NCBI RefSeq assembly: GCF_014844075.1
Contig: NZ_CP062165.1
Coordinates: forward strand, 1,488,001-1,552,000
Length of the DNA stretch: 64,000 bases
Direction: 5' to 3'
Origin: Paenibacillus sp. JNUCC-31
Lineage (GTDB): Bacteria > Bacillota > Bacilli > Paenibacillales > Paenibacillaceae
Shown here: positions 61,060 to 62,894 of the stretch, in pieces
Numbering within the stretch: position 1 is the first letter of the stretch
How the letters are laid out: the number at the start of each line of letters is the position of its first letter
Program-made: the position numbers and the translations under genes
Notes under the pieces: model-generated
What the model was told of the DNA's origin: nothing
The model's database searches: none
What the model saw: the letters and a program-made list of their open reading frames with translations, nothing else

Positions 61060-61266
61060 TCACAGACATTCTTTCTTTATGATTTCCAAAATACAATCCA
61101 GGGGCCGATGTAATCCTTCTGCTAACCCTACGAGTACTGTTAAAAAAGTTAAGCTCAACCTCAATATATTAGATGACTGAAGTTGTTTGTTCTGAAGTTG
61201 TTTGTTCTGAACTTGCTTTTCCAGAAAGCCAATACGTTTTTTAAGCTCCTGAATCTCTTTCTCCAT
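61060..61266 (-). CDS. Small coiled-coil protein with one membrane helix
   Basis: A 68-residue protein. Residues 1-32 form a charged coiled coil (EIQELKKRIGFLEKQVQNKQ) with a duplicated QNKQL unit encoded by two copies of a 15-base direct repeat. A hydrophobic segment follows (LRLSLTFLTVLVGLAEGL). GAGGATTACC precedes the ATG. It is divergent from the sigma factor fusion gene, so a partner or anti-sigma role is possible but unsupported. Confidence 0.55.
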   Translation of the reverse strand: MEKEIQELKKRIGFLEKQVQNKQLQNKQLQSSNILRLSLTFLTVLVGLAEGLHRPLDCILEIIKKECL

Positions 61267-61431
61267 TGGTAATCCTCACTTAATACCACATAGCTGAATT
61301 GCCTTTACGCTTTGCTTTTTCGGGGTTTAAAAAAAGAGGAGCGGCGTCGTGTAAAATTATTTTAAAATGATGTGGCTTTTTACCTCCCTTCGGTGTCTAA
61401 TGAATTGTAAGTTCAGGAGGAGGTACTACTG

Positions 61432-62670
61432 GTGTCACGAGCTCAAGACAAAAAGAAAATCCCTGTTCTTCCGGAGGAGCAGGAGCACATCCAACATTTC
61501 GAAGCCATTTACAATCAATATCGAGATAGAATTCGAAATTATATTGCAGTAAAGACAAATTCGGCAACTGCCGATGACTTAACGCAACAAGCTTTTTTAA
61601 GAGCAATGGAAAACTTTCACTTGTTTAAGTGCAACTCCAGTATATTTACTTGGCTATTCAAAATCGCGCAAAATATTGTGAAAAACGAGTATCGTAGGAG
61701 ATCACGAAATAAAGAAATGGTGCACGAAGTAATCGATTTTCAGACCCAATCGATATCCCTCGATATTGCCAGAGATGTCGATATCCGTCTTGATATCAGT
61801 GCTGCATTAGCCCGATTGAATGAATTAGATCAGCAAATCATATCATTGCGTTTTTTCGTCGATTGCACTTTATTGGAAATATCCAAAATCATCGGGATGC
61901 CTGAAAGTGCAGTCAAGAACAGACTCTATCGTGCCTTAAACAAACTAAAAAAAGAATTAAAAGAATGGGGTGACATTACAATCATGTCTATTAAAGAATT
62001 GATATCAATTGTGGATAAAAGCGAGGCTCCCTCCAAGAATGATGGTATGAACAAGGTATACCATGACTTATTTGAAGAGTTGAAAAGCAATGTAGATCGA
62101 ATTATTACAACCTATCGTCATCGACCTTCTCAGAAAATCGCTATTGAGATCTATCCGGATCTGCCCACTTTTCATCAAGCAATAAACGAGCCGGATGCGC
62201 CCAATTGGTATATGGGAACCTATGAAGACAATAAAATTAAAATCGTATCCCCACTCAACCCAGGCCCTGAACATACGTATCAATCGGTACTACGGCACAC
62301 TATAAGCTTGTTTACGATGTGGTTAGTGAAGGATATTAATCCGTTGGCACCGAAATGGCTTACACACGGTCTCGGCGGGCATGAAGCCAAACAAATGTCA
62401 CAAGAATATATCCAGTATAGCACCTCCGAATCGATTCAAAATAACGCTGTCCCTAGCTTTCAAGCATTAACTAATGATACCTGGGATTTCGAGAAGATAG
62501 GGGGATATGGATTCTCGCACTTGCTCATAGAATATCTCATCCATTCATACAGTTTAGATGCGCTCAACAAATTCATACGCGATGCCACTGATTTTCAAGG
62601 CGCATTTCAAGTATCGGAAGCTGAGCTGCACGGGATGTGGGTGCAATATTTAAAATCTAGGCTATGTTAA
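61432..62670 (+). CDS. ECF sigma factor fused to a degenerate metallopeptidase-like domain
   Basis: A 412-residue protein. Residues 20-185 are an ECF sigma factor: region 2 (DDLTQQAFLRAMENFHLFK, SIFTWLFKIAQNIVKNEYRR) and region 4 (LDQQIISLRFFVDCTLLEISKIIGMPESAVKNRLYRAL). Residues about 210-412 resemble the MA-like gluzincin fold (MGTYEDNKIKIVSPLNPG, VLRHTISLF, PKWLTHGLGGHEA). Where an active enzyme has HExxH, this has HTISL, so catalysis is unlikely. GTG 61432 follows AGGAGGAGGT. No anti-sigma gene is adjacent. The added domain may act as built-in sensor. Confidence 0.8.
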   Translation: MSRAQDKKKIPVLPEEQEHIQHFEAIYNQYRDRIRNYIAVKTNSATADDLTQQAFLRAMENFHLFKCNSSIFTWLFKIAQNIVKNEYRRRSRNKEMVHEVIDFQTQSISLDIARDVDIRLDISAALARLNELDQQIISLRFFVDCTLLEISKIIGMPESAVKNRLYRALNKLKKELKEWGDITIMSIKELISIVDKSEAPSKNDGMNKVYHDLFEELKSNVDRIITTYRHRPSQKIAIEIYPDLPTFHQAINEPDAPNWYMGTYEDNKIKIVSPLNPGPEHTYQSVLRHTISLFTMWLVKDINPLAPKWLTHGLGGHEAKQMSQEYIQYSTSESIQNNAVPSFQALTNDTWDFEKIGGYGFSHLLIEYLIHSYSLDALNKFIRDATDFQGAFQVSEAELHGMWVQYLKSRLC

Positions 62671-62690
62671 ATTTTGATACTAGTATTTGA

Positions 62691-62730
62691 CCATAACAAA
62701 ACCACCTTCGAAAAGGTGGTTTTGTTATGG
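62691..62730. terminator. Perfect 18-base-pair bidirectional terminator after the sigma fusion gene
   Basis: CCATAACAAAACCACCTT (62691-62708) pairs perfectly with 62713-62730 around a CGAA loop. The GC part followed by TTTTG forms a terminator in both directions. Confidence 0.85.
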
Positions 62731-62793
62731 TCTCCCATAGCTCAACAGTACACTATACATTGTTCTATCTAGTACAGCCTTATAGCCTCAATC

Positions 62794-62894
62794 ATTAAAT
62801 TATCCTGCCCGTTAGCTTAATAAAAAGAGCAGGATACCGAAGTACCTGCTCATTAATGTCTAGGATTCCACTATCGTTTCCTGTTAGTTGAATC
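62794..62894 (+). repeat. Two dispersed CCCGTTA-type motifs flanking a hairpin (copies 4 and 5)
   Basis: ATTAAATTATCCTGCCCGTTA begins at 62794 (the full copy runs to 62820) and CTATCGTTTCCTGTTAGTTG lies at about 62870-62890. Between them GAGCAGG (62827-62833) pairs with CCTGCTC (62845-62851). Copy 4 shares its first 11 bases with copy 1 at 522. No gene is seen in 62731-62897. Confidence 0.4.

Follow-up and report, generated by a model that had tools for sequence, protein, structure and literature searches.

How can an extracytoplasmic function (ECF) sigma factor be controlled when its gene stands without an anti-sigma partner and its own chain ends in a domain resembling a peptidase? The question is raised by a gene (61432..62670, plus strand) in a 64,000-nucleotide stretch of the Paenibacillus sp. 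JNUCC-31 genome (the window; NZ_CP062165.1 positions 1,488,001 to 1,552,000, here G000:C1:1488001-1552000). The host genome is a single contig of 7.55 Mb. The gene is a single open frame of 412 amino acids, with a GTG start at 61432 preceded by AGGAGGAGG. Sequence comparison and modelling indicate that it encodes an ECF sigma factor whose C-terminal extension is, unexpectedly, a dead gluzincin. An original prediction, made from the letters alone, had described it as an ECF sigma factor carrying a catalytically dead metallopeptidase-like domain; that account was found to be correct in outline, with the active site misplaced.

The sigma part comprises region 2 (about residues 21-92, 61492..61707; PF04542, 38.4 bits, gathering score 24) and region 4 (about residues 125-180, 61804..61971; PF04545, 46.5 bits, gathering score 24.1), and the continuous frame joining them is as first described. 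Region 3 is absent, as expected for an ECF sigma factor, PF08281 also scored above its gathering score, and TIGR02937 gave 87.4 bits (cut-off 42.9). The protein stayed below the equivalog cut-offs for BldN-type factors (TIGR02952, 95.6 bits vs. 206.45) and SigY (78.5 bits vs. 194). Models of defence systems gave one 12.8-bit match for this protein and none for two other proteins scanned. Neither Pfam nor a PDB sequence search returned a match to the C-terminal domain.

This domain (residues 204-412, 62041..62667, delimited by structure model, fold comparison and profile comparison) was related to peptidases in two other ways. A profile comparison with stand-alone zinc peptidases gave a match of 99.7% (E 1.7e-25), the domains matching end to end, and fold comparison of the predicted structure likewise matched MA-type peptidases. 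Both results support the gluzincin assignment, so the absence of a structural match, which would have spoken against it, was not observed, and the domain is predicted to have a gluzincin (Peptidase MA) fold. The Pfam family PF13485 (Peptidase_MA_2, gathering score 32.4) gave no match for the window protein; sub-threshold scores of 15-27 bits were obtained for six of eight relatives scanned, and none for two long forms described below.

The peptide patterns named in the original prediction, GTYEDNKIKIVSP, HTISL (residues 289-293) and PKWLTHGLGGHEA, are all found in the translation. HTISL had been taken as the remnant of the zinc site HExxH. This register was wrong by three residues, since intact stand-alone homologues align their HExxH at 292-296, and two alignments agree on S292-L293-F294-T295-M296 (62305..62319) as its equivalent. 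The third zinc ligand, the Glu of WLxEG, corresponds to H312 (62365..62367). Our census covered 206 rows, representing 205 unique sequences among the 242 collected, and 197 rows were complete at the site. In these 197, neither Glu at 293 nor His at 296 occurs, and Leu occupies the catalytic Glu position in all 204 rows that have a residue at this point. The site retains its first His in 148/204 rows, the window protein having Ser292. Position 312 is Gln in 148/204 rows and Glu in two of the 197 complete rows; it is His in the window protein. No fused member with an intact zinc site was found, the lone HExxH string (P0093) being an N-terminal HEQGH in a protein whose site reads HLYTM. Loss of HExxH, which the original prediction had proposed to follow through the relatives, is thus without exception in the complete rows. 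Together with the profile and fold comparisons, the census indicates that the domain is catalytically dead across the family and does not qualify as an active zinc metallopeptidase.

The stand-alone proteins (L092 5421-6236 and L145-L148) have HEFTH, HEFVH or HEFIH followed by WLYES or WLDEG, and lack a sigma part. They start with a hydrophobic or lipobox-like segment and are apparently surface-anchored. With Pfam they reach only 18-25 bits (PF13485 gathering score 32.4), and they possibly form an undescribed surface peptidase family.

The window protein matched 132 proteins in a first search (E up to 1e-5) and 138 in a profile search (E up to 1e-3). Among the best 120 of the 132 and the best 120 of the 138, named source organisms were mostly Paenibacillus, and full-length relatives reached down to 44% identity. 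Of 295 genomes from the taxonomic family, 51 had matches to the gene (E 1e-40; some are fragments), as did 68 of 344 from the order (E 1e-25; matches to the sigma part only are counted too). The ratio of non-synonymous to synonymous substitution rates (dN/dS) was 0.09-0.18 for the sigma part in 11/11 pairs. For the C-terminal domain it was 0.11-0.27 in 8/11 pairs and 0.65 in one (dS 0.016), and two pairs gave no usable value. Purifying selection therefore acts on both halves of the gene in most pairs. Two genes joined by a sequencing error, the other outcome against which the original prediction had been weighed, are ruled out by this selection and by the full-length relatives: the same fusion is present in other Paenibacillus genomes. 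The uniform loss of the site together with purifying selection argues for a domain kept for a non-enzymatic function.

Residues 289-293 read HTISL or similar in the window's subtype and STVHL or similar in most other members. In a tree of 52 domains the subtype was nested inside the other members, with support by the Shimodaira-Hasegawa-like approximate likelihood ratio test (SH-aLRT) of 100 for the subtype and 96 with two STVHL sisters; the stand-alone enzymes were weakly placed (support 7, long branches). One could suppose that the old zinc site was rebuilt in the subtype as a different metal site, making the domain a metal sensor. Positions 289, 312 and 317 are His in the subtype but Ser, Gln and Tyr in most relatives, position 292 is Ser in the subtype but His in most relatives, and positions 289 and 312 covary. 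However, the change is confined to one nested clade, so that it may have arisen once and produced the covariation in that way, and two members have Asn289. We find a metal sensor highly improbable.

No anti-sigma gene was seen beside the sigma gene when the open reading frames (ORFs) of the window were inspected by eye. Across 77 loci, with crude ORF calls and about 5 kb on each side, no conserved neighbour emerged; the commonest neighbour family was present in 10/77 loci at scattered positions. This agrees with the original statement that no anti-sigma gene is adjacent.

The linker between the two sigma regions contains a hairpin motif (residues 107-122, 61750..61797), identified by model, alignment and census. 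An ISLDFAKxVEIRIDI-like sequence was present in 195/206 rows, with Asp121 in 202/202. The pattern was found in none of 17 non-fused ECF proteins (the ten nearest sigma-only matches, five paralogues and two further ORFs), a contrast that is no independent test as the pattern was derived from the family itself. In the predicted model, residues 107-112 and 116-121 form strands. As judged from first and last aligned residues, most gluzincin alignments of the fold comparison start near model residue 100, and several cover more residues (up to 225) than the domain has (209), so some of the sequence ahead of residue 204 is matched to the enzyme fold. The stand-alone enzymes have a LIQETxHGKFY-like stretch ahead of the first long helix, where the fused domain is modelled with a disordered tether. 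We infer from the model that the linker hairpin substitutes for the missing N-terminal strands of the peptidase domain.

The dead domain could instead be a positive module that binds a partner, DNA or RNA polymerase, and no brake at all. A comparable case is TAF2 of eukaryotic TFIID, an inactive M1-type peptidase within a complex that initiates transcription. The explanation is weakened by the lack of a partner gene conserved beside the sigma gene, and the conserved linker motif suggests a contact within the protein; we consider a positive module rather unlikely.

Some relatives are longer. Ten matches in five genomes of another taxonomic family sit in frames of 778-828 residues. Two long forms scanned carry SBP_bac_1 (5.4e-21 and 2e-15), and among 18 proteins retrieved with the long form, precomputed Pfam assignments place sigma region 4 and SBP_bac_1 together in 16. 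Carriers include by name P. mesophilus, P. ginsengarvi, P. solanacearum and P. hemerocallicola. The third domain matched oligosaccharide-binding proteins (best E 7.3e-15; low-confidence model, with a mean predicted local distance difference test score (pLDDT) of 66). ECF sigma factor, dead peptidase and a solute-binding protein of extracellular type were seen in one chain of about 700-820 residues in loci L093-L102 (proteins P0126-P0141). As no membrane segment is evident between the long-form domains in the alignment, a natural reading of the third domain is a cytoplasmic solute sensor. The solute-binding fusions suggest a sensory role of the fused proteins. That the domain may sense or restrain the sigma factor, as first proposed, is plausible, and the predicted linker hairpin and these fusions make the proposal more specific.

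A predicted ECF-like promoter motif, GTGGCTTTTT-N10-GGTGTCTAAT, lies ahead of the gene (61372..61401, plus strand). At up to five mismatches it was found within 250 nt upstream in 75/77 loci, exact in 49 and with one mismatch in 10, and in 0/77 control stretches. The long forms and most distant branches have it with 4-5 mismatches, and it is missing in two of the 77 loci. When 22 genomes were searched at up to three mismatches, all 17 sites with 0-1 mismatch directly preceded the 17 family genes of the 14 gene-bearing genomes, and the 8 genomes without the gene had no such site. The simplest reading of the upstream motif would be a self-directed sigma factor with positive feedback.

A wider regulon was sought with the same motif and rejected. 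Five further sites with 2-3 mismatches were found in the 22 genomes vs. 14 for the reversed pattern. A looser pattern gave 17 sites besides the 19 own sites vs. 24 in the control for 16 gene-bearing genomes, and 10 vs. 13 for 16 genomes without a gene match, neither being an excess; one of these 10, in G205, has a single mismatch. A regulon using weaker sites may exist. One weak site recurs in five genomes including that of the window, where it overlaps the start of an opposite-strand ORF.

The gene and its motif lie in a unit of about 1.7 kb (approximately 61130..62825) that was found by blastn in unrelated surroundings in other Paenibacillus species. DNA identity to four loci (L149, L151, L153 and L154) was 94.0-97.6%; the unit starts at 61130 and ends at 62824-62832, and the flanks differ. 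A smaller stretch is shared with L150 (61197-62819) and L155 (61343-62783). By taxonomy codes the window's subtype is carried by other genera or families, namely P. lautus (G217, g13), P. eucommiae (G417, f6) and P. castaneae (G198, g17), the window being f1 and g1. The subtype thus appears to move between Paenibacillus species as a compact unit that brings its own promoter motif.

These observations also bear on the possibility of a largely selfish regulatory cassette, whose protein mainly drives its own expression and whose spread needs no host benefit. The 17 near-exact sites for 17 genes in 14 genomes, with weaker sites no more frequent than in controls, would be expected of it, and so would near-identical copies with different flanks in different species and broken copies in several genomes. 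On the other hand, purifying selection acts on both halves in most pairs, the location of the gene is common to a group of related species (4-locus clusters), and true ECF regulons can use sites weaker than the autoregulatory one. Weighing both sides, we think a largely selfish cassette improbable.

Taken together, the data lead us to a tentative model, to which we give slightly less than an even chance: the protein would be a transferable, self-activating one-component ECF sigma factor that carries its own sensor or brake in the form of the dead peptidase domain. Its observed basis consists of the fusion itself, the homology and the dead site of the C-terminal domain, the conserved motifs in the linker and upstream of the gene, and the absence, in the genomes searched, of further near matches to the upstream motif. 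The C-terminal domain would have descended from a zinc peptidase of the stand-alone type that lost its N-terminal anchor or signal, the stretch before the first long helix, and catalysis. It would lie in the cytoplasm and hold the sigma2-sigma4 linker, whose conserved hairpin would occupy the place of the missing N-terminal strands. A docked linker would keep the sigma factor from seating correctly in RNA polymerase until the domain's ligand or partner released the linker. The freed sigma factor would then transcribe its own promoter, a positive-feedback switch able to function wherever the gene lands. Docking, autoinhibition, the ligand and autoregulation as such are what we infer.

Several results weigh against this model. 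The linker blocks are modest in model confidence (pLDDT 58 and 75), and a low-confidence model of a long form has no strands in the linker. Coupling analysis placed 20 linker-domain pairs in the top 200 vs. 15.7 expected (effective number of sequences, Neff, 58). One genome without the gene (G205) holds a one-mismatch motif (L282 1501-1531) with no family ORF behind it, which breaks a strict rule of one site for one gene. Since its flank resembles that of gene-bearing P. amylolyticus, we read this motif as the probable scar of a lost gene.

Other features surround the gene. A small divergent putative ORF (61060..61266, minus strand; 68 amino acids, coiled-coil-like) has a related small ORF at the same place in four other loci, its far end varying between loci. 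After the gene lies a palindrome (62689..62732), read from the sequence and from self-matching inverted blastn hits, which is probably a transcription terminator. The terminator scan did not report it, the only Rfam match, far below the cut-off, was located there, and it is missing in L149 and L154.

An integron-like repeat element (62794..62894, plus strand; core 62869-62892) lies at the right-hand side of the unit, and none of 200 shuffles folds as well (z -3.4). Of five repeat elements folded as single strands, four clearly beat their shuffles (z -3.1 to -7.1) and one did not (z -1.4, 18/200 shuffles as good). In 11/15 copies of the subtype, such an imperfect-palindrome repeat is found no further than 1.5 kb from the gene, and 16/16 sites share the gene's orientation. 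Among the other 62 loci it is near the gene in five (five sites one way, two the other), and the reversed pattern gave 0 matches near the gene. Repeats flank both sides of the gene in some loci only; at the window's gene there is one, on the right.

A second copy of the repeat is present in the window at 526-549, and all 12 genomes searched contain it in 1 to 43 copies. It also occurs about 1.2 kb ahead of another copy of the sigma gene, a broken one, that the host genome contains (G000:C1:7511086-7511777, L009 6088-6779; 95% identical over residues 30-202). Broken or partial copies were also found in G013, G043, G139, G186 and G445. In P. castaneae (G198:C1:2749770-2826687, L298-L302), 36 repeats in one orientation alternate with small unrelated ORFs over 77 kb. 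Most of these ORFs point the opposite way to the repeats, in contrast to the sigma gene. XerC/D-like recombinase ORFs lie among the repeats, two scoring best to XerD. In this array, the only one searched, the recombinase stayed far below the cut-off for integron integrase (TIGR02249, 82.2 vs. 265 bits) and below that for XerD (184 vs. 329.6 bits). The array looks like an integron-like cassette array. Integrons are reported to be rare in this phylum (PMC9024848), and the movement of a compact unit near cassette-like repeats raises the question of gene capture in Paenibacillus. A fuller version of the model, in which a self-propagating cassette encodes a sigma factor that serves no promoter but its own and is controlled by exchange of a beta-hairpin between linker and captured dead peptidase, spreads between Gram-positive species through an integron-like cassette system and has relatives with an added cytoplasmic sugar sensor, strikes us as doubtful.

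Compared with known systems, the domain is the same end to end as that of the Peptidase_MA_2-like stand-alone proteins, which keep HExxH and an anchor-like N-terminus and are free of any sigma part. Bacterial collagenases (M9), M30 lugdulysin and M1 aminopeptidases are active zinc enzymes, with 7-15% identity over the aligned part in the fold comparison. TAF2 is likewise a dead peptidase in transcription initiation but is eukaryotic, a separate subunit, and no sigma factor. Saccharibacillus is a near relative of Paenibacillus, and its species S. sacchari enters the comparison through ECF264. The reference protein of that group (WP_037286607.1) comes from S. sacchari, and PMC8999054 (Table 2) names ECF264 as one of the groups whose regulatory extension has yet to be studied. 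The window's family may or may not be ECF264. No sigma factor with a gluzincin or solute-binding domain was found in the titles and abstract openings of the literature searched, and our claim of novelty reaches only as far.

The closest parallel in design is ECF41 (SigJ, Ecf41Bli), which likewise joins an ECF core to a C-terminal domain without an anti-sigma factor; there the C-terminal domain touches the linker and blocks RNA polymerase binding (PMC8999054). The ECF41 extension is SnoaL-like and of another fold, whereas the window's family has a dead peptidase domain and a modelled hairpin in the linker. The window protein does not belong to ECF41, as no SnoaL-like domain was found among its Pfam matches and its domain matches gluzincins. 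As a single gene with its own predicted promoter, it would allow a test, free of any anti-sigma partner, of how an attached domain controls a sigma factor. It also widens the range of sensor modules known from ECF sigma factors by a dead-enzyme fold, joined in sister proteins by a solute-binding protein.
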